Below are positions 13,720 to 37,922 of a DNA stretch of 37,922 nucleotides, piece by piece. Source of the DNA: a virus; the IMG/VR virus record IMGVR_UViG_3300034018_000393, positions 1-37,922 of that record; one strand, written 5' to 3'. The stretch's first letter is position 1. Every line of letters starts with the position of its first letter. The notes under the pieces were generated by a model. It did not search any database. It was not told the origin of the DNA and saw nothing but the letters and a program-made list of their open reading frames with translations. Position numbers and translations under genes: made by a program.

Positions 13720-13929
13720 ATGTTAGTACTAAAAGCAAATGAAGAGCAATACAACGCTTTAAATTATTACGAAAATAACGGCAATGTTTTAGAATTTACA
13801 AAAGATAAAAACGATAATTGGGTAGTAGGAATTAACGTACTTACCGCTGAATGCTTTTATGATATATGGCAAGATTTAGCAAAGTTAGAAACTATTGAAT
13901 ACATCTCAAATGAAGAAGAAACTATATAA
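13720..13929 (+). CDS. Fibre-associated small protein, 69 aa
   Basis: MLVLKANEEQYNALNYYENN, then VLEFTKDKNDNWVVGINVL. This type (strand, EQY helix, then (L/I)EF-x-KD-x-(N/D)-NW(I/V)VG) is often found directly after fibre or adhesin genes in Bacteroidota phages. It may be an assembly partner or a small tail component. The end overlaps the next gene's start by 20 bases. Confidence 0.65.
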   Translation: MLVLKANEEQYNALNYYENNGNVLEFTKDKNDNWVVGINVLTAECFYDIWQDLAKLETIEYISNEEETI

Positions 13930-25813: not shown

Positions 25814-28800
25814 ATGGCAGAAATTAAAAATAATTTTACTGGAGGAAAAATGAATAAGGATCTCGATGACAGGTTAGTTCCTGAAAACGAGTATCGAGAC
25901 GCTGTAAACCTGCAAATAAGTAAATCAGAAAATTCAGATGTAGGTACGATGCAAACCGTATTAGGCAATAGCCTATTGGTTGATTTTAATGAGATAGCTG
26001 ATGAAACAGGATTAGATTGTATTGGTCAATTTATAGACCTAACAAACAATGTGGGTTATTTTTTTTTAACGGATTACATTGATACTACAGGAACAAGTCT
26101 ATATTCGCCAACTGCTAAGAATTATATATTTACATACAATTTCGGAACCAATGTTGCCACTAAATTAGTATCAGGTGCTTTCCTAAACTTTTCAGTGACA
26201 AGTCCTATAATTGGCGTAAACTTATTAGAGAATTTATTATTCTGGACAGACAATCGGAACCAACCAAGAAAAATAAATATAGACACTGCTTTCAGTACAC
26301 CAAATTATTATATAACAGAAGACACTATATCTGTTGCTAAATATTATCCATATAAGTCAATAGAACTTTGGCAAGAAAGCGAAGAGGCTCCTGAAAGTTA
26401 TGAAACAACAATGAAAGATGTTTCATCATTATACTATCCAAATGGAGGCGAATGTTTTACAGATGAAGCAACTACAGCAGATACTACTTTCCTTGTTAAA
26501 GGAGTTTCGGGTATTATTATACCGGGAGTAAATGTTGGTTATATTAGTGGTGATGGAACAATTATACCGTTAGGATTAACAGTTGTAAGTTATAATGAGA
26601 TGGGTCCATCGGTTACCTTATCAGGACCTATCACTTTGCCAGATGAAACATCGTTAGTATTTTCAATTAATCCTTATTATGATCCAGTATTTCCAGGAGA
26701 TCCTGATTATTTAAAAGACAAGTATGTAAGATTTTCTTATAGGTTTAGGTTTGATGATGGTGAATATTCTTTGATAGCTCCATTTACACAAATAGCATTT
26801 ATACCGCAACAAGATGGTTACTTTACATATAATGCTGATTTTAACGTTAATGACGAAGAAGCAACATATAGAAGTACTATTGTTGCTTTTATGCAAAATA
26901 AAGTTACCCAAATAAAATTAGTAATACCATTACCTGTAGATAAAGACTTTTTAAGTAGTGACTTGAAAATTACTGAATTAGACATACTATATAAGGAGTC
27001 AGACGGCTTATCAATAAAAGTATTAGATACAATATCAGTAGAAGAAATAGAAGATCAAGTAGATGGCGGAGAGAGTAATTTTTTATATAACTATAATTCT
27101 AGAAAGCCATATAAAACATTACCAACAGCAGAAATAACTAGAGTATATGATATAGTTCCAGTAAGGGCCTTTGCTCAAGAAGTAGTTAGTAATAGAATTG
27201 TTTACGGTAATTATCAAGATAAACATACTCCATTACCTTCTAATGTAAGTTTAAACTACAATGTTGCTGTTTCTACAAAGTATGACTTTGATACTATCAA
27301 TGGTTTTACAAGCTCAATAGAATATCCAAACCATAGTCTTAAAGGGAACAGGAGTTACCAAGTTGGGGTTGTATTAGCTGATAAATTTGGTAGACAATCA
27401 ACTGTATTGTTATCAAGAAATACAACCTCTGTAGTCACTGAAGGCCAAGCTTTCTCTGGTTCAACTGTATATGCTGGATATATAAACAATACAATTGATC
27501 CAATGAGCTGGCCTGGAAGTTCTTTGAAACTTATCTTTAATGACCTAATACCTCCTGATAGACAAGTTTCTACTGCTTATCCTGGAGTATATAATGGTGA
27601 TCCCTTGTCGGTTGATTATAACCCACTAGGTTGGTATTCATATAAGATTGTTGTAAAACAAACAGAGCAAGATTATTACAATGTATATCTGCCAGGGGTA
27701 ATGGCTGCATATCCGGATGATACTACTAAAGAAATAGGTAAAACATCTCATATTGTATTAATAAACGACAATATAAATAAAGTACCCCGTGATTTATCAG
27801 AAGTTGGACCATTACAAAAACAATTCAGGAGTAGTGTTAAGCTATATAATAGAGTTAATACATTTGACATTACTACTGCCCCGTTTCTAGGTAATATACA
27901 ATATTATCCAGGTAAAACGGCAATGATTGTTAGTACAATCGCTGATAACTTAGAAATGTTTAATGGTGATGGCACTGCTATCCCATTTGCTCCATCTGAT
28001 TATTTTTATAATGTACAGTCTAATCCACTGATAGGGAGGATATCAACTGTAAAACAATTTGGTATAATAGCAGCTGGGCCTACGGAGCCATGGTTTAACT
28101 TAGGCATTGCTGAAACTGCTCCTACGGAATCACTATTAGATATATTCTGGGAAACAACCACAGCAGGATCTGTTGCAGAATTAAACGAAGCAATAGAAGC
28201 TGGAGCTGGAGGAGCTGTTCGATTAAGTGAATGGAACATTAATAGATTTGATGAAGACATGGAGGAGGGTGACTATATTGATAATGATGGATTTGCTTTA
28301 GTTAATGCTTTTAACATAGCTATCAATAATGATCCGATAATAATTACGAGTCTAACTATGCCGTCCGTTAATACCCTTGGCCCTTTTGGTACAGATGTAA
28401 CTTCTTATTTCACCTTAGAACAAGATCCACTAAATCCAATAATCTCAGAATATCCAAGGTGGTTTATAAAGGTTACTTCAGATTTTTATGACAATGTATA
28501 CTTTAGAGGCGGCCCCGAATTTGAATTAAACAATTTTGTATTCAACTTTGTGGCTACGGTAGGAGGAGTAGATAGGATATTGTCTAGAACAGTTACATTA
28601 AACAACATTGATCCAATAATATTTGGAGCACCTCCTTCGGGAGAAGTGGTTGCAAGTACTCCTAACGATACTACTCACATAAGATTATCTGGGCGTAACG
28701 GATGTGGCAACGATGCTTTAGCAAACGCTCTGCCGATTGAATGGTCTCTTTTAAGTGCTAATCTTTTAGGGGGAGGCCCTGTTGATTATTTTTCAGTATC

Positions 28801-29287
28801 AACAGATATAGTTGGTACATTCGCTGGTGGTAAGCTAAATAACAACTATTTGCCTCTTATAACTCCAATTGGTCCTTTTGAAATAACGATGAGACTAACC
28901 GATGCAGGTGGAGCTGGAGATGCTGCTGATGTATCCTTTTTGCTTAGATTAGGATTTGCGCCAGGCTCAGGCTCAGTTATAGAATATTCTTTTACGTCTA
29001 TGGGTATTGAAAGGAAATTTGTAGTAATACCAGTGCTTCCTGGGTTGGATCCATATATACCAGGTTATTATGCATATATGGGTGGCTGGAACGAATTGAG
29101 AAGCGGCACTAGTGTTATACTTATTCCTAGCACCGGGTATTCTTGCGGAGGAGGATGGTTATATAGTTCATCCAGTGACATTGAGGTAATAAAAAATGAT
29201 TCTGTGTTATGTCTTGATGATTCATATACCGGTGGTCTAGTAGAACGTCTTATTAACACTTCTGGTTATACCTTCTCTTTCTCTTAA
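25814..29287 (+). CDS. Tail ring/propeller protein, N-terminal part of a split gene, 1157 aa
   Basis: Starts with EIKNNFTGGKMNKDLDDRLV, PENEYRDAVNLQISKSE, the hallmark of large tail stabilisation/ring proteins in marine and Bacteroidota podoviruses. Residues to about 760 look like a multi-bladed beta-propeller; about 800-1130 add beta-sandwich domains. The C-terminal part found in single-chain relatives is encoded separately at 29328-30770. It probably forms the tail tube end through which DNA leaves. The stop is followed by a second in-frame TAA. Confidence 0.75.
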   Translation: MAEIKNNFTGGKMNKDLDDRLVPENEYRDAVNLQISKSENSDVGTMQTVLGNSLLVDFNEIADETGLDCIGQFIDLTNNVGYFFLTDYIDTTGTSLYSPTAKNYIFTYNFGTNVATKLVSGAFLNFSVTSPIIGVNLLENLLFWTDNRNQPRKINIDTAFSTPNYYITEDTISVAKYYPYKSIELWQESEEAPESYETTMKDVSSLYYPNGGECFTDEATTADTTFLVKGVSGIIIPGVNVGYISGDGTIIPLGLTVVSYNEMGPSVTLSGPITLPDETSLVFSINPYYDPVFPGDPDYLKDKYVRFSYRFRFDDGEYSLIAPFTQIAFIPQQDGYFTYNADFNVNDEEATYRSTIVAFMQNKVTQIKLVIPLPVDKDFLSSDLKITELDILYKESDGLSIKVLDTISVEEIEDQVDGGESNFLYNYNSRKPYKTLPTAEITRVYDIVPVRAFAQEVVSNRIVYGNYQDKHTPLPSNVSLNYNVAVSTKYDFDTINGFTSSIEYPNHSLKGNRSYQVGVVLADKFGRQSTVLLSRNTTSVVTEGQAFSGSTVYAGYINNTIDPMSWPGSSLKLIFNDLIPPDRQVSTAYPGVYNGDPLSVDYNPLGWYSYKIVVKQTEQDYYNVYLPGVMAAYPDDTTKEIGKTSHIVLINDNINKVPRDLSEVGPLQKQFRSSVKLYNRVNTFDITTAPFLGNIQYYPGKTAMIVSTIADNLEMFNGDGTAIPFAPSDYFYNVQSNPLIGRISTVKQFGIIAAGPTEPWFNLGIAETAPTESLLDIFWETTTAGSVAELNEAIEAGAGGAVRLSEWNINRFDEDMEEGDYIDNDGFALVNAFNIAINNDPIIITSLTMPSVNTLGPFGTDVTSYFTLEQDPLNPIISEYPRWFIKVTSDFYDNVYFRGGPEFELNNFVFNFVATVGGVDRILSRTVTLNNIDPIIFGAPPSGEVVASTPNDTTHIRLSGRNGCGNDALANALPIEWSLLSANLLGGGPVDYFSVSTDIVGTFAGGKLNNNYLPLITPIGPFEITMRLTDAGGAGDAADVSFLLRLGFAPGSGSVIEYSFTSMGIERKFVVIPVLPGLDPYIPGYYAYMGGWNELRSGTSVILIPSTGYSCGGGWLYSSSSDIEVIKNDSVLCLDDSYTGGLVERLINTSGYTFSFS

Positions 29288-29327: not shown

Positions 29328-30770
29328 ATGGGAGCAATAATAGAAGTAAAATATTTCAATACTTTTTTACTAAAGAAAACCACAAATTCAGATTTTAAAG
29401 GAGAGTGGAATGGTTCTCTTGGTATTCCTGAGAGTTTAGGCGGTTATCCAGGCCCTGTGACTCCCTTTACACAAGAAGACTATAACTGGGTAATTGAAGA
29501 AGCTAGAATAACAGGAGGATATAATAATACCTCTGTTGATTTTGGCGTAAGAGCTTATTTAGTAGAAGAAGAACCTAGCGCAAGTATTAGAGGTAACTCT
29601 TTGATATATTCTGGTATATTTAATTCTAGAACGGGTGTAAATAATACCAATGTGTTTTCCATAGGTGATGAAATAACTAGAAGTTTAGATCCGGCAAGTG
29701 GATCAATACAAAAACTATATGCAGAGGACACAAACTTAATAATCTTTCAAGAGAACAAAGTAAGTAGATCTTTAATAGAAAAAGACGCAATCTACTCAGC
29801 CGAAGGCGGTGGAACAGTCACTTCATCAAATGCTGTAATTGGACAGAATATTCCTTATGCTGGTAATTACGGCATAAGTAAAGACCCACTTAGTTTTGCA
29901 GTATATGGTTATAGAAAGTACTTTACAGATAGATATAGAAATAGTGTTTTAAGATTGTCTCAAGATGGAATTACAGAAATATCAGAATATGGTATGACTG
30001 ACTTCTTTAGAGATACATTTGCCACCATAAGCTCTTCTAACTTTGGTCAAGGTAATATAATAGGTAGTTGGGATGCTTATAATAAGCAATACATGGTTTC
30101 ATTACAAACAAGTGAAGCTAATCCTACGCAATCTTATGTAACATTAAATTTTGATGATACAATCAACGGATTTACTAGCTTCTTCTCTTTTAGGCCAACT
30201 AGGATGTTTAGTGTTAGAAGTAATTTCTATTCTATAAAAGACGGATCGCTATGGGAACATTACGCACAAGGAGCGTCAGCAGGAACTTTTTATGGAACAC
30301 AAACAAAGTCGTCGATCACATTGATATTTAATAAAGATGTGGGCGTAAGTAAAAACTTTAAAACAGTAAACTACGAAGGTGATAATGGCTGGCAAGTAGA
30401 TAGTTTTATAGGAGATACACAAAAATATGATTTTGGCGATGTTTTCTATAACTTTGGAATAAGCAATGACACAACCGCTCAAATACCTAGTTATATTGGA
30501 GGCGCTTATGATGCTAATGGTAATGTATATCCTACGCTTTTAACTCCCCCTATATATCGATATGGATTTGAAAGAAAAGAGAATAAATACTATGCTAATT
30601 TAGTTAATAATAGTGCTCCTTTTAGTGGTGAAGTTATTTATGGCGAACAAGTGTCTGGCATAAAAGGTAGATTTGCAACGGTTACTTTATCAACAGATAA
30701 TATAACAAACGTAAATGGGCTTAAGGAAATATGGAGTGTTGGTACACAATATGTAATGTCAAGCTATTAA
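29328..30770 (+). CDS. Tail ring/propeller protein, C-terminal part of a split gene, 480 aa
   Basis: Opens with IIEVKYFNTFLLKK, a point that lies inside the chain in related single-chain proteins (as I recall: a KYFN(T/C)(F) strand, then GLIYSG(I/L)(F/Y)N, NNTN-x-F, then GS-I-QKLYAEDTNLIIFQE and YGISKDPLSFAVYGYRKYFT). All of those are here. It completes the propeller blades and ends in NGLKEIWSVGTQYVMSSY. Encoded 40 bases after 25814-29287 in a different frame with its own ATG. The two products likely assemble together. Confidence 0.7.
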   Translation: MGAIIEVKYFNTFLLKKTTNSDFKGEWNGSLGIPESLGGYPGPVTPFTQEDYNWVIEEARITGGYNNTSVDFGVRAYLVEEEPSASIRGNSLIYSGIFNSRTGVNNTNVFSIGDEITRSLDPASGSIQKLYAEDTNLIIFQENKVSRSLIEKDAIYSAEGGGTVTSSNAVIGQNIPYAGNYGISKDPLSFAVYGYRKYFTDRYRNSVLRLSQDGITEISEYGMTDFFRDTFATISSSNFGQGNIIGSWDAYNKQYMVSLQTSEANPTQSYVTLNFDDTINGFTSFFSFRPTRMFSVRSNFYSIKDGSLWEHYAQGASAGTFYGTQTKSSITLIFNKDVGVSKNFKTVNYEGDNGWQVDSFIGDTQKYDFGDVFYNFGISNDTTAQIPSYIGGAYDANGNVYPTLLTPPIYRYGFERKENKYYANLVNNSAPFSGEVIYGEQVSGIKGRFATVTLSTDNITNVNGLKEIWSVGTQYVMSSY

Positions 30771-31253: not shown

Positions 31254-32207
31254 ATGAGTATGGTAGTAGCCGGTTGTATTGGAGCCGCAGCAGCAATATC
31301 GTCGGGAATCATTGGAGCCAGTAAAGCTAAAAAAGCTAGAAAAAGAGCAGAAAGAGAAGCAGCTGCGAGAGCAAAAGAATTAGCTGCGTTAGAAAGATCT
31401 AGGCAAGCAATAATAAACCCGTATGAAGGAGTAAAAGATGTTAGTGCAATGGCTTCAAACCCTTATGCCAGTCTTGGTGTTGCAACACAAGCAGCTGAGT
31501 TTCAAGCGGAACAAGCAGATATGTCTTTAGCTAATACTTTAGATGCTTTAAAACAAACAGGAGCTGGAGGTGGTGGAGCAACGGCATTAGCTCAAGCAGC
31601 ATTACAAAGTAAGAAAGAGATTTCAGCTAATATTGAACAGCAAGAAGCTTCTAATGAAAAGCTTAGAGCTCAAGGAGAACAAGATTTACAAGCTATAAAA
31701 ATGGCAGAAGCACAAAGAGTACAACAAGCTCAAGCCGCTGGTAAACAATTTATGTTTGAAGTTAGAGAACAAAGAGAGGTTGCAAGAATGGATCGTGTAG
31801 CTGGTCAAATGTCAAACGCCCAAGCTCAAGCTGCACAAGCAAGAGCGGATCAGACAGGAGCGATAACTGGTATGCTCGGAAGTCTTGGATCAATAGGATC
31901 TTCAATGGGCGCCGGCGGCGCTTTTGGAGGTGGAGGTGGAGGTGGAGGTGCGCAGGCGGGTGGACGAGGTGCATTAGCAGGAGCTAGTTCTGATATAAGA
32001 TTAAAAAAGAATATTGAAAAAATTGGAGTATCTAATAGCGGAATAAATGTTTATTCTTTTGAGTATAAAGATAGCAAATATGGTCTGGGGAAATGGCAAG
32101 GCGTAATGTCTAATGAGATTACCGCTAACGCCGTATCAAAAGATAAAGATGGATATGACATAGTAGATTATTCATTACTTGATGTAGAATTTAAACAAAT
32201 ACAATAA
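31254..32207 (+). CDS. Internal virion protein with C-terminal S74 self-cleaving domain, 317 aa
   Basis: Residues 1-25 hold a hydrophobic Ala/Ile/Gly helix; 25-200 is an Ala/Gln/Arg/Glu coiled coil of the kind seen in phage ejection proteins; 208-240 is a Gly-rich linker. The last 72 residues (SDIRLKKNIEKIG, YSFEYKDSKYGLGKWQGVMS, IVDYSLLDVEFK) form an intramolecular chaperone (peptidase S74, ICA) domain. The Ser-Lys dyad would be S246 and K251, spaced as in known S74 domains; cleavage before S246 would leave a 245-aa mature protein. The S74 domain is usually on fibres, so its host here is notable. Confidence 0.75.
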   Translation: MSMVVAGCIGAAAAISSGIIGASKAKKARKRAEREAAARAKELAALERSRQAIINPYEGVKDVSAMASNPYASLGVATQAAEFQAEQADMSLANTLDALKQTGAGGGGATALAQAALQSKKEISANIEQQEASNEKLRAQGEQDLQAIKMAEAQRVQQAQAAGKQFMFEVREQREVARMDRVAGQMSNAQAQAAQARADQTGAITGMLGSLGSIGSSMGAGGAFGGGGGGGGAQAGGRGALAGASSDIRLKKNIEKIGVSNSGINVYSFEYKDSKYGLGKWQGVMSNEITANAVSKDKDGYDIVDYSLLDVEFKQIQ

Positions 32208-33671
32208 ATGGGAGCATACAGTAATCCACAAGCGATAATTGATACACAATCGGGAGAATACATAAGAGACTTGCAAAGTAATATTGCAGGTTCATTTTCT
32301 AATTTTGCTCAAAGTTATGCTAATAAACAAGAAGCTATAAAGAAAAAATTAGAAGAAAATAAGAAAAAATTAGACGATATAAATAGAGAAACAGAAGAAT
32401 ATTCTTTCGCTCTGCGTACTAATGTTTCTAAGATATCTAACGCTGATGATAAATTAAATTTAGCTGAAACATTTGAACCATTAATACAGGAAGCCGTAAA
32501 ATTAAAATCCGGATTATTAAATAATTCTATAACAGGCAATGATAGACAGGTAGCTATGCAAAGATTATCTGATATCAATAACTCTGTCTCAAGCAGTTTT
32601 ACTACAAGTTTAGGAGACATATCTTCTTACGCGGAAGACGTTGATAACTTATTGATGAAACCTATTGGAGATCCAGGTGGTTTAGCTCAAGATATGGATC
32701 CTAGCGATGTAAAGGCTCTTAGGATAATGCAGGGGAAATTAGGTGGCACAAAAAAAGCTGTATACAAAGACGGAAATCCTAACAACCTTGTTTGGGAAGT
32801 ATATGATGGTAATGGTGCATTGGTAAAAGAATACGCTGCATCTCAATTAAAGAAGATGAGTAATTTAGGAACAGAATTTATAAAAGTTGTTCCAGATAGA
32901 ACAGAAAGTAATGAAAGACTTAAATCCGCTAAACCTGATGTTTTTGAATTAGAAGCAGTTAATGCGAAAGATCCAAACGCTCAGAAACAATCTAACGGCC
33001 GTATAAAAGAAGCATTTTTAAAGAAAGACGCAAACGGTAATTTAGTTACTAAAGAAGTTGAACTTGGAGAAAAAGAATCTGGTAAATTTAAACTCGTTAT
33101 GGAACCAGATTTAGAAATGATTAGAACAGCATTGGATACTGACTTAACTTCTCAGATAGCAGGTATGACAGACGAAGAACTCATGTTACATACAAACAAT
33201 ACTGTAAACAAATATCGCATTAAAGCTGGTTTAAAGCCAATATATTTAGATTCTGATGGTGTATTAGACGAAACAGAAAAAGCTCAAGCCATTGATGCAT
33301 ATAAAGACCATTTTGTTAATACACAAATAATGCGTGAACAAGTTGTATTAAGAGAAGATAATAGTACTTATATATATCAAAAAGAAGGAGCAACTACTCC
33401 GAAAGAAGCTAAGCCTAAAAAAGAACCTAAAAAGACTGCTAATCAAAGATTACAAGAATCTGTATTTGAAACACCTCCTTCAGAAAGAGCAAAAAGCGGT
33501 GTTGGACAAGGCACAATAGTAAGCGGTCCTAATAAAAAATACAAGATAGCGGGAAAAGATGATGGTGGTAAAGTAGGTTATTGGTATGAAATTGATAAAG
33601 ATGGTTTAATAATAGGTAACCCAGTGCCTGAAGCTACAGTGAAAAAGCAAATTGGATATAAAAAACAATAA
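32208..33671 (+). CDS. Probable internal virion (ejection) protein, 487 aa
   Basis: Begins directly after the previous stop. N-terminal coiled coil (about 25-140: FSNFAQSYANKQEAIKKKLE, KKKLDDINRETEEYSFALRT), a mixed middle, a Lys/Pro/Glu-rich stretch near 400-415 (TPKEAKPKKEPKKTA), and a small beta C-terminus (NKKYKIAGKDDGGKVGYWYE). Lying between the S74 protein and the giant polyprotein, it likely belongs to the set packaged in the head and injected. No enzyme motif seen. Confidence 0.6.
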   Translation: MGAYSNPQAIIDTQSGEYIRDLQSNIAGSFSNFAQSYANKQEAIKKKLEENKKKLDDINRETEEYSFALRTNVSKISNADDKLNLAETFEPLIQEAVKLKSGLLNNSITGNDRQVAMQRLSDINNSVSSSFTTSLGDISSYAEDVDNLLMKPIGDPGGLAQDMDPSDVKALRIMQGKLGGTKKAVYKDGNPNNLVWEVYDGNGALVKEYAASQLKKMSNLGTEFIKVVPDRTESNERLKSAKPDVFELEAVNAKDPNAQKQSNGRIKEAFLKKDANGNLVTKEVELGEKESGKFKLVMEPDLEMIRTALDTDLTSQIAGMTDEELMLHTNNTVNKYRIKAGLKPIYLDSDGVLDETEKAQAIDAYKDHFVNTQIMREQVVLREDNSTYIYQKEGATTPKEAKPKKEPKKTANQRLQESVFETPPSERAKSGVGQGTIVSGPNKKYKIAGKDDGGKVGYWYEIDKDGLIIGNPVPEATVKKQIGYKKQ

Positions 33672-33693: not shown

Positions 33694-36600
33694 ATGTTTG
33701 AATACGTTGATAGTTTAGGACAAATATACACAGAAGACGATATAAACAAGATGGCAGCCGAGCAGAAAACCTCGGCTGATGCCATTATAAGAGGTAAGAA
33801 GTTAAAGCAGAAATCTACAAAGAATACTGTTACTCCTAAGCCAAAACAAAAAACGTATCCTTGGAGTGATGGTCAAACTAAAAAAGAACCTGGATTCTTA
33901 GATGAATTTAAAAAAAGTAGTAAAGCTAAGAAGACTAATATAAAAAAGAATACTGAAAAAGTATCAAACTTTGTTGGTAAACAAAATGATCTTAGTCAGT
34001 TTTATCAAGAAGATCCAATACAGGAGATCTTAAATCCAAAAAGCGAGTTAGAGAAAACTTTAGCTACATTACCTGCTGTACCTGCAAAACAAGATTGGGA
34101 AAAATTACAAGATAAAGAAGATGAAGTAGTTAATTATATAAAAAGTAAACCAATTGATTATGCTTCAATTGACAAATTATATAATGATGAGATCAACGAT
34201 TCTCAGAACATCGACTACGTAAGAGAGGGTGCAAAAAACTTCTTTAATGATGTTGTGTTGTCTCCAATATCTATGGTTGGTCAAGCTATAGGTGCTGATA
34301 TAGATCTTACTATATCTCCGTTCAAACCATTAGAGAGCCAAAAGAAAGAAGCAATAGAAATATTATCTAAGACTAAAAAGAAAGGCGCTAAGGTAACAAA
34401 TGAAGAAATAGACGCTCTTGCAAAAGATCTATTTTATAAAGAAAAAATATTAATACAAGAAGGTAAAGCTGCCGAAGAATATTGGGATGAACAACCTTTG
34501 TATATAAAAGAAGTAGCAGAGCAAAAGGAAAAGCTTAAAATACGAGCGGCTCAAGATGTATTGGTATCTTCTGATTTGGCTCGTCAACAAACCGTATTAG
34601 CTAAAACATACAATAATGATATAACTTCGTTTGAAAAATACGCAGAAGGATTCAAAACAAAATATGATTCTGGAGATGTTACAGATGAAGAGATAGCTAA
34701 ATATGAAGTAAGGAGAGAGAATGCTAAAAAATCATTAGAAAGTTTAAAAGGAGTATATGATAATTTTCCTAAGTACATTGACAAAATAAAAAGCGATGAG
34801 GAAAAGTTAGAATATTTCAAGTATAATTATGATGATGTTACTGCTAATATGCAAAAGCTTATTGGTACAAGTCTTAATATAGTTGGAGGAACTGGTAAAA
34901 TATTAGGCTCTACAATAGAATATATAGAAGGAGATAAAGCTGGTCTTGGTGGATTACTTAGTGAAGCATCAGGTGATACAATAAAACTTGGTAATAAGAT
35001 TAAAGAAGATACAAAGCAATATTCTTTTGAAGATGTTAACTCATTTTCAGATTTTGGTAAATATAGCTTTGGATTAATAGCTGAGCAATTGCCTGTATAT
35101 GCATCAATGTATTTTGGCGGTAATTATGGAGCTGCAGCGGTATCGTTGGGATCTGGAGGGCAAAAGATACAAGAGATGGAAGATGAAGTTGGTTCTGACT
35201 ATGACTTAGGGACTAAACTATTAGCAGGTTATGGATTTGCTTTGGCTGAATTTGTCCCTGAAAAACTAGGTACACTTAGGATGTTTGACAACATGAAAAA
35301 GGTTATGTCTTCTATGGGTAGTCAACCAAGACAGATGTTTAAAGATAGCTTTATAAAATCAAGCTTATACACAGCCGGACTTGTTGGTGTTGAATCTCAA
35401 ATAGAGGGAGGCACAGAAGTTGTTACAGAAGGCTTAGATATGCTTATTGACGAGCATTTGTTGGGAGTTAGCATTACTCCTTCTGCTAGAGCGAAAAGAT
35501 TTAAAGAAGCTTATGCCGCAGGAGCATTTATGGGTGGAGGAATGCAAATGGGTGGTGGAGTTTCAACATTAGTGGCAAAGGAATTAAAAAACTACGCTAC
35601 GGCTCAAGAAATGGCTGCCAGTAAAAATATTATAGACCGTATAGATTATTTACAAAATGAATTACAGACTAATACAAGATTGTCTGGTAAAGAAGCTGAT
35701 GAAATAAAAATAGAAATAAATAGATTATCTAATGAATCATTAAAGGTTATTGAAAACTCACGTGATCGTGTATATGATATGCCTGCTGATGACATGACCG
35801 CTGTGTTGGAAATAAACAAAAAACAGCAAGATACTAAAGATGCTTATATTGAATTATCTCAATCAAACTTTTCACCTGAAATTAAGAAAGAGAAAGCTAC
35901 TGAGTTAAAAGAACAGTTTAATGAATTTGAAAGACAAAGAGAGTTTCTATTGACTGGTAAATACGCTATGATAAATAAAATAGTTGGCAATAGAGCAACT
36001 ATTAATAGTAGTGTTGAAAATATTAAAAAAATAGTAGCTGGATTAGGTGAAGAAAATATCAGTAATAGAATAGGTGATCAAGGATCTATTGCTGTATTTG
36101 AGAATGTCGATGAATTAAAGAAGGCTTATAAAGAATGGGTTACTGTTGAAAATAATAATACAAAAAAAGCTATTGCTTCTGGTGAATTGCCGGCTAATAC
36201 AGCTATAAAATCAGACGAGCAAATAAACTCAGAAGTTGAAGAGGTTGCTAAATCTGATGGATTCAGTTTACCTAATGGTCAATCAGTTGTTAACTTAAGT
36301 GTAGCCTCAAGAACAGGGGCTATTAACGTTGCTCAACACGAATTCTTACATAAAGTATTAGCAAAAGCGCTTAGCAATCCACAAGAAAGAAAAAAAGTTG
36401 TTAATGGATTCTTATCTGTTTTAACCAAGAAAGAAAGAGATGTTATACAAAAACGTATTAACGAGAACTATTTAGACAAGGAAACAGGAACAATAAAAGA
36501 TGAAGATTTAGAAGAGTACTTTACAGCTTTCATCGATGCTATTGCCTACGGCGAAATTGGAGATAAAAACCAAATTAAAGACGTATTAAGAAGGGCTGCA

Positions 36601-37922
36601 AGGCCTGTTCTTAGAGTATTACAAAAAATGGGTTTTACCAATGCTAAATTTAGCGAAGGCCGTGATTTCTATGATTTCTTAAAAAATTATCAATCAAACG
36701 CTAGTAAAGGTAGAATAAGCGAAAGAGCAAAAAGTTTATTAGCTGGTGCGGTAGTGTCTAGATCTATAAGATATTCAAAGTCTATTGAAGAAAGAATGGA
36801 CGATTTAGATGATCAATTAAATAATAATGAAATTGATTATGACACTTACGAAACCAAAATGGTTGCTCTTGAAAAGGAGGAAGCCGAGACTAAGCGTAAA
36901 GAGTATGAAGAAAAGAAAGCTGCTTTAGGTAAAGAACCAGAAACAAAGAAGACTGAGAAGAAAGAATCTAAGCCAAAAACAAAAGAAGTTACTGAAATAA
37001 GTGAGGCAGCTGCTAAAGCTAAGGCTAAACTTGATGCCATTGGTAATGATCCAAAAGGATTTAATCCTGGTAATCCGGCTATATATTCGGAGCTTGATAA
37101 GATGGTTAAAGTTAAATCAAGAAACTGGAGAACTTCTAAAGGAACAATTATCGATTTTACAAATAAAGATAAAGGAGGACTTGATGGTTTTGATTTAGAA
37201 GAGATGGTTAGCTACGTTAGAACATCGATGATCCCTTATATAGCTAAATTTGACCCCTCAAAAAACAATAGCTTGTATGGTTATATAAACGCACAATATG
37301 CAAACCGTATGAAAGCAGCTTTAAAGAGTGGTGAAGTTGCTGATGTTGTGTTTACTGAAGATGTTACAGAAATGACTAAATTGGCAAATGAGGATGTTGA
37401 AGTAACAAAACCAACATTGCCAGAAAGAAAGCGTTTTCAAAATATATTAGAGTCTGGAGTATTTAGTCCGGATGTTCTTGATAACATTCAAGCAAAGATA
37501 TTGCCTATTATTAGAACATTGAAATCAAAGATTAATGAGAAGACTACGTTAAACAGAACGATAGCTCCTATTATAGCTGAGATAAGAGATGAGATGGGTA
37601 AACAAGCAGACATTGACATTAAGAAAGCAATGGGTGGTAAAGAAAACCAAGAGTTACAAAATTGGTTAATAACTAATAAGAAAACCATTCTTGAAAATAT
37701 GACCACTACTTGGTTGATGGGTAAAGATATGGGTAACAAAGTAGCTGGAGGTATGCCATTTGCAATACAAAAAAAGGTAAATGGCAGATGGCTTAATTAT
37801 CCTGATTGGGTAGGTCAAAAAATTGATCGTGAATCAGTTGGTACAGACTTAGCCGGAAGAACAGCTGGGCATGAGCTAGTTAGAAGATTGCCGGAGGTAA
37901 ATAAGAATGTTTCTACAATGGA
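33694..37922 (+). CDS. Giant virion polyprotein with HExxH zinc-peptidase site, 5' part (at least 1409 aa, runs off the right edge)
   Basis: ATG at 33694 (MFEYVDSLGQIYTEDDINKM). The frame is open to the end. Visible parts: Lys-rich disordered start; helical stretches; small-residue-rich hydrophobic segments near 390-415, 465-490 and 605-635 that could enter a membrane; a zincin site H882-E-F-L-H886 with a candidate third ligand in EEYF at 940-943; Lys/Glu linker near 1050-1110; and a KFDPSKNNSLYGYINAQYAN segment (about 1185-1204) resembling sigma region 2 / large polyvalent phage proteins. It is probably packaged and delivered with the DNA, the peptidase perhaps processing the chain or host proteins. 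Confidence 0.7.
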   Translation, partial: MFEYVDSLGQIYTEDDINKMAAEQKTSADAIIRGKKLKQKSTKNTVTPKPKQKTYPWSDGQTKKEPGFLDEFKKSSKAKKTNIKKNTEKVSNFVGKQNDLSQFYQEDPIQEILNPKSELEKTLATLPAVPAKQDWEKLQDKEDEVVNYIKSKPIDYASIDKLYNDEINDSQNIDYVREGAKNFFNDVVLSPISMVGQAIGADIDLTISPFKPLESQKKEAIEILSKTKKKGAKVTNEEIDALAKDLFYKEKILIQEGKAAEEYWDEQPLYIKEVAEQKEKLKIRAAQDVLVSSDLARQQTVLAKTYNNDITSFEKYAEGFKTKYDSGDVTDEEIAKYEVRRENAKKSLESLKGVYDNFPKYIDKIKSDEEKLEYFKYNYDDVTANMQKLIGTSLNIVGGTGKILGSTIEYIEGDKAGLGGLLSEASGDTIKLGNKIKEDTKQYSFEDVNSFSDFGKYSFGLIAEQLPVYASMYFGGNYGAAAVSLGSGGQKIQEMEDEVGSDYDLGTKLLAGYGFALAEFVPEKLGTLRMFDNMKKVMSSMGSQPRQMFKDSFIKSSLYTAGLVGVESQIEGGTEVVTEGLDMLIDEHLLGVSITPSARAKRFKEAYAAGAFMGGGMQMGGGVSTLVAKELKNYATAQEMAASKNIIDRIDYLQNELQTNTRLSGKEADEIKIEINRLSNESLKVIENSRDRVYDMPADDMTAVLEINKKQQDTKDAYIELSQSNFSPEIKKEKATELKEQFNEFERQREFLLTGKYAMINKIVGNRATINSSVENIKKIVAGLGEENISNRIGDQGSIAVFENVDELKKAYKEWVTVENNNTKKAIASGELPANTAIKSDEQINSEVEEVAKSDGFSLPNGQSVVNLSVASRTGAINVAQHEFLHKVLAKALSNPQERKKVVNGFLSVLTKKERDVIQKRINENYLDKETGTIKDEDLEEYFTAFIDAIAYGEIGDKNQIKDVLRRAARPVLRVLQKMGFTNAKFSEGRDFYDFLKNYQSNASKGRISERAKSLLAGAVVSRSIRYSKSIEERMDDLDDQLNNNEIDYDTYETKMVALEKEEAETKRKEYEEKKAALGKEPETKKTEKKESKPKTKEVTEISEAAAKAKAKLDAIGNDPKGFNPGNPAIYSELDKMVKVKSRNWRTSKGTIIDFTNKDKGGLDGFDLEEMVSYVRTSMIPYIAKFDPSKNNSLYGYINAQYANRMKAALKSGEVADVVFTEDVTEMTKLANEDVEVTKPTLPERKRFQNILESGVFSPDVLDNIQAKILPIIRTLKSKINEKTTLNRTIAPIIAEIRDEMGKQADIDIKKAMGGKENQELQNWLITNKKTILENMTTTWLMGKDMGNKVAGGMPFAIQKKVNGRWLNYPDWVGQKIDRESVGTDLAGRTAGHELVRRLPEVNKNVSTM

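Follow-up and report, generated by a model that had tools for sequence, protein, structure and literature searches.

A giant polyvalent phage protein with a predicted zincin, a sigma-region-2-like segment and a junction motif that may mark processing sites

In 2017, Iyer et al. described polyvalent proteins, which occur in phages and in conjugative elements; their processing by a zincin is predicted there, and the passages considered name no recognition motif for it (PMC5512222). The phrase "sigma factor" is absent from the main text of the same article. PhicrAss001, a podovirus whose muzzle is of the crAss type, stores large cargo (gp45-gp50; PMC10172136). Four Cellulophaga phage proteins, phi18:3 gp123, phi38:1 gp101, phi13:2 gp127 and phi46:3 gp120, are virion structural proteins by annotation, which for phi18:3 gp123 cites virion proteomics by MS/MS. 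Phage N4 ejects a giant virion RNA polymerase of about 3,500 residues, which has a C-terminal HExxH domain and which we take to be T7-like. Here, we report a giant protein, probably a particle component of bacterial viruses from aquatic habitats. It is polyvalent in the sense of Iyer et al. (2017), and its new features are a sigma-like module and a candidate code for processing.

The window analysed is the whole of the viral contig IMGVR_UViG_3300034018_000393 of IMG/VR (37,922 bases), and its features are collected in Table 1. In agreement with a preliminary description of this DNA, more than 1400 codons were found in one open reading frame (33694-37920), which is still open at the end of the record. 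The gene continues beyond the window, as had been expected. Close relatives of it were found at six loci, and the complete proteins among them measure 2905 (L004, 97% identical to the window protein where the two overlap), 2713 (L003) and 2589 residues (L007); the window portion is the front half of a protein of about 2,900 residues. The membrane-like segments that had also been claimed were not confirmed as true membrane segments: the hydrophobic stretches are weak, and the best 19-residue Kyte-Doolittle mean, 1.30 at residues 187-205, does not reach the value of about 1.6 that is usually required of a transmembrane segment.

Table 1. Positions of the giant gene, its predicted domains and its upstream neighbours in the window (aa, residues of the giant protein)
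Feature	Position	Strand	Basis or remark
Upstream gene with a PHROG match (virion structural / DNA ejection protein)	31254..32207	+	
Upstream gene, 487 aa, function unknown	32208..33671	+	conserved beside the giant gene
Giant gene of the polyvalent polyprotein, first 1409 codons	33694..37922	+	ATG at 33694, runs off the record end
N-terminal domain, aa 152-780	34147..36033	+	homologues in cultured Bacteroidota phages, phi18:3 gp123 among them
Zincin core, aa 856-950	36259..36543	+	invariant residues, profile, model
HEFLH, aa 882-886, predicted two zinc ligands and catalytic Glu883	36337..36351	+	invariant in 70 relatives
E941, predicted third zinc ligand	36514..36516	+	invariant in 70 relatives
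J0, RYSKS, aa 1026-1030, end of the zincin module, candidate processing site	36769..36783	+	
Sigma-70 region-2-like segment, aa 1162-1213, includes FDPSKNNSLYGYIN	37177..37332	+	profile and fold search

The giant gene is placed after a block of TerL, portal, capsid and tail genes with two muzzle-type ORFs (matches to phrog_14478, PF25731 and PF25729). The ejection-protein-like gene lies two genes upstream, with the 487-residue gene in between. These two ORFs are adjacent (25814-29287 and 29328-30770), and a single crAss-type muzzle protein is matched by the former in its front part and by the latter in its back part; this split is probably no sequencing error, since ORFs of matching size occupy the same place in relatives. 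GroEL-like and GroES-like chaperonins are also encoded by the phage (7011-8576 and 14658-15305). Both GroEL and GroES are present in phage elemoA, and in phi38:1 a GroES adjoins the terminase and a GroEL is found in addition.

A profile of the C-terminal domain, about 700 residues long, matched 508 stretches in viral contigs. The best 80 loci of these were fetched and, after removal of near-duplicates, 76 long proteins were analysed, including two distant homologues from cultured phages. Iterated HMM searches revealed a strong homology between the N-terminal domain and the four Cellulophaga phage proteins. The preliminary description had the giant protein packaged in the virion; this is supported indirectly, because its N-terminal domain is homologous to phi18:3 gp123 with its MS/MS annotation, and the window protein itself would probably be packaged too. 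Among the family members taken from the best 80 of the 508 stretches, the N-terminal profile was undetected in 27, and therefore the carrier itself varies. Pfam and PHROGs searches with the whole giant protein returned nothing informative. Pieces of the family (L103-L116) were seen in MAGs of Bacteroidota and also in some that are labelled as Alphaproteobacteria, Aliivibrio, Woesearchaeota or Ilumatobacteraceae; the labels outside Bacteroidota are probably binning errors.

The proposal of a zinc peptidase was upheld by its residues and by profile comparison, but not by the fold search. HEFLH was found in the place claimed, and EEYF, at residues 940-943, about 55 residues after it. H882, E883, H886 and E941 are the sole invariant columns of a 70-sequence alignment with a mean column identity of 19%; an HExxH with a conserved downstream glutamate ligand is the signature of zincin-like metallopeptidases. 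Exactly one HExxH is present in every distinct long relative listed from the best 80 of the 508 stretches, and the motif arose in just 0.14% of shuffled copies of the window ORF. When the zincin profile of all members was compared with peptidase M78, a probability of 73.5% was obtained (E 3e-5 for the single comparison), the match covering the edge strand and the active helix. This probability was 44.5% when two rows from cultured phages were dropped, and it did not exceed 0.4% for ten control windows of the same proteins. The AlphaFold model, for which the alignment left out two rows from phage records, is fair (pLDDT 79.5, pTM 0.73). However, Foldseek retrieved no zincin from the PDB with this model, and the Pfam peptidase families gave no match to the window protein; both points count against the mechanism proposed below. 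MPTase-PolyVal (PF18818) gave no Pfam match and an hhalign probability of just 23% over 15 columns, for which reason the giant protein was not filed under that family. The zincin, its fold being predicted, is probably active. HExxH is absent from the four Cellulophaga phage proteins, which are without the window-family modules, and present in the larger elemoA gp21 and Gundel_1 gp074; these few points fit a peptidase that travels with the cargo.

A likeness to region 2 of sigma factors had been noticed in the segment FDPSKNNSLYGYINAQ, which is confirmed at residues 1186-1201; in many relatives the consensus is D[VI]..R.Y......kfDGRG.LYGYiNGRI.fRI.DalK. Using hhalign, the block with FDPSKNNSLYGYIN was compared with 22 Bacteroidota sigma region 2 sequences and matched them in the right register, with a probability of 87%, a score of 35 and an E of 4e-6 over 47-48 columns, 17 control windows scoring at most 13.9. 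Furthermore, sigma factors dominate the top 50 Foldseek matches of the block model in the PDB (best E no lower than 0.04), and SigE region 2 fits the model with a TM of 0.63-0.69 (normalised to the target) at 3.4-3.6 A. The mean pLDDT of this model is 73.8, with lower values, about 46-72, within the sigma-like segment. Pfam Sigma70_r2 reached one of 54 members (E 0.15), and LPD38 made weak contact with two of the 54 blocks. The block was found in only 57 of 77 members from the best 80 of the 508 stretches, which is a point against the mechanism proposed below. No match to region 4, the helix-turn-helix that binds the -35 element, occurs among the Pfam matches listed for the 54 members. Because region 4 was not found, the domain is termed region-2-like and not a sigma factor; the earlier claim holds for region 2. 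Its homology to sigma-70 region 2, observed at profile level, is probably genuine. A sequence search of the PDB with both profiles returned no match. In L006, the giant gene is broken at the sigma-containing block (about 13795-13822); it is intact in the other copies.

Zincin and sigma-like segment thus stand in one very large chain whose modules are exchanged, and the earlier comparison with large polyvalent phage proteins was borne out: effector or enzymatic domains without mutual relationship, two at least, are combined, and the architecture changes fast, modules being replaced between close relatives. The further domains that had been expected downstream are present in relatives between two junctions, J1 and J3, in a stretch of 306-838 residues. 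By sequence pattern only, HAD-like modules (DFDDT) were seen there in 31 relatives and P-loop modules (GGPGAGK) in nine, examples of such modules being at residue 1869 of L066 and residue 2038 of L036; a possible ADP-ribosyltransferase-like module was seen, likewise by pattern, in L012 and L028. PD-(D/E)XK nuclease modules, suspected by eye, are not claimed, a loose pattern finding six proteins only.

A short [KR]-x-S motif, absent from the preliminary description, was observed at most module borders. J0 is the sole junction within the window, J1 to J3 being located beyond the record end and known from relatives. J1 (ERGN-[VI]K-x-S) closes the sigma-containing block and has an invariant K, a nearly invariant S and a variable x. 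J2 precedes the HAD-like or P-loop modules, and J3 the C-terminal domain. In four close relatives, 3-5 motifs were counted per protein against about 0.17 expected, a count in favour of the mechanism proposed below. Between close relatives, identity drops from about 80-95% to about 10-50% at residues ~1483 and ~1974 of L004 and recovers at ~1855 and ~2156; the L004 motifs KYSLS (1487), KHSRS (1862), KFSFT (1980) and KLGKS (2153) lie on or near these breaks, and most variable stretches terminate at motifs. In another pair, L009 and L002, the first 40 residues are 97% identical and most of the second half about 85-100%, but the N-terminal half of L009, together with its zincin, is a different one. 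The break lies near J0, similarity being regained gradually from ~1017 to ~1086, beside the J0 motif at 1026. Modules are thus swapped near the motifs. Misfits to the motif, which count against the mechanism, are J3 of L004, L009 and L026, the proteins L016 and L020, and J0 in many members. Searches with LPD38 and ART-PolyVal in Bacteroidota genomes, bearing on the generality of the motif elsewhere, gave few multidomain matches, in loci too short for it. The [KR]-x-S borders may be cut sites of the resident zincin; whether they are cut at all is, on the patterns described, an even question.

The variants of the motif agree within one protein. Residue x was identical at J1 and J3 in 28 of 51 scorable proteins and of the same class in 40, compared with 10.3 and 19.7 expected from shuffling. 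When J1 and J3 were simulated as evolving independently from a shared root state along the C-terminal domain tree, 9.8 +/- 4.0 identical and 19.3 same-class proteins resulted. The p-values (printed as 0.0 for both measures in 3000 runs, and 0.008 in a Fisher test of class agreement between J2 and J3) are indicative, because the junction patterns, like the class groupings, were chosen after inspection of the sequences. The list behind the J2 comparison visibly contains a few misreadings by the regular expression. In a sister-pair test of J1 and J3, 5 to 7 pairs were informative, too few for significance, and none was opposing. L068 and L084, which are not sisters on the tree, each have KESKG at both J1 and J3; this sharing might reflect convergence or transfer.

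In a relative of 61.5 kb (C-terminal domain 79% identical), no large ORF, the giant gene included, carries DxDGD, the catalytic motif of crAss-like virion RNA polymerases; there it occurs only in a 123-residue ORF, a chance-like match. No large polymerase-like ORF was found in this relative, and no RNA polymerase is listed in the annotation of elemoA. Phages of this kind probably rely on the host RNA polymerase, which would make a role for the sigma-like block plausible.

We propose the following mechanism. The phage would package the polyprotein and deliver it together with its DNA. The N-terminal domain and the C-terminal domain would form a carrier frame, between the parts of which the zincin, the sigma-region-2-like domain and the exchangeable modules are held. 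The zincin would cleave the chain at the [KR]-x-S junctions, either while still inside the particle or once the host has been entered, and so free the modules. The freed sigma-like domain would then bind the host RNA polymerase and aid the start of early phage transcription. As a whole, from packaging to the action on the polymerase, this mechanism is given slightly less than an even chance. In a stronger form, zincin and [KR]-x-S sites would have coevolved in each lineage as an own processing code, and after entry the sigma-like subunit would take over the host RNA polymerase of phages devoid of a virion RNA polymerase; this version is considered unlikely.

The polyprotein could also stay intact, with a zincin that cuts host targets or is structural and with junctions that are linkers. 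The N4 virion RNA polymerase, with its HExxH domain bound to the polymerase, presumably acts as a full-length protein, and this precedent speaks against our mechanism. Zincins as effectors are among the options given by Iyer et al. (PMC5512222), and several junctions depart from the motif. However, a plain linker leaves unexplained the kept K and S and an x that agrees across borders, and an intact chain is regarded as rather unlikely. If the junctions are cut, another protease (a phage prohead protease or a host enzyme) might be responsible and the zincin might do something else, as the motif by itself names no enzyme. No prohead protease was seen among the large window proteins scanned, which are a subset of the genes, and the lack of HExxH in the four homologues without window-family modules also argues against this explanation, which we hold to be improbable.

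Module exchange near the motifs would equally be expected if these were recombination seams, short shared sequences for exchange without a role in the protein. Such a cause at the DNA level was disfavoured by the codons: within one gene, the serine codon switches between TCN and AGY from junction to junction, so the constraint acts on the protein and it is not the DNA that is conserved. Moreover, the K and S of J1 are retained next to a domain with vertical inheritance. Already weakened in this way, the seam is very improbable. A further alternative concerns a single step of our mechanism and is compatible with those above: the sigma-like block would be a structural, helical carrier domain, convergent with region 2 and without binding to RNA polymerase. 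The shortness of the likeness, about 50 residues, agrees with it, as do the low AlphaFold confidence in this segment and the near silence of Sigma70_r2, whereas a profile score far beyond the controls, in the right register, and fold matches that are mostly sigma factors argue for the homology; convergence is a serious possibility that falls short of an even chance. In the mechanism that we favour, the sigma-like domain may bind RNA polymerase.

In aquatic metagenomes the family is common, yet Pfam largely misses it. A packaged sigma-like module, if true, would represent another route by which an injected protein reaches transcription start, besides virion RNA polymerases and ADP-ribosylation of the host polymerase. 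A polyvalent architecture with a zincin, and processing presumed to go with it, were already proposed by Iyer et al. (PMC5512222); as far as the searched literature tells, two features are new, the sigma-region-2-like module and a junction motif matched within lineages, the latter making the zincin-processing prediction of 2017 testable on an isolate.

Compared with known systems, the window family shares with the polyvalent proteins of Iyer et al. (PMC5512222) a very large, multidomain, phage-type chain with a zincin in mid-chain and exchangeable enzymatic modules, and differs from them in being largely missed by Pfam. In elemoA gp21 (Flavobacterium phage, 3694 residues) and Gundel_1 gp074 (Tenacibaculum phage, 2482 residues), the N-terminal domain is homologous and one HExxH is present, and the gene of elemoA gp21, like the giant gene, follows the tail genes in the gene order. 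The identity, about 27%, concerns the N-terminal part only; the other modules differ, and the C-terminal profile of the window family matched neither protein. The four Cellulophaga phage proteins have the homologous N-terminal domain but are shorter (1439-1990 residues), besides their lack of HExxH. PhicrAss001 and the window both have muzzle homologues; the cargo of the former includes RNA polymerase-associated proteins (PMC10172136), which were not found in the 61.5 kb relative. Finally, the protein of N4 is likewise giant and carries an RNA polymerase, whereas no polymerase motif was found in the near relative of the window, and a sigma-like segment is present instead.
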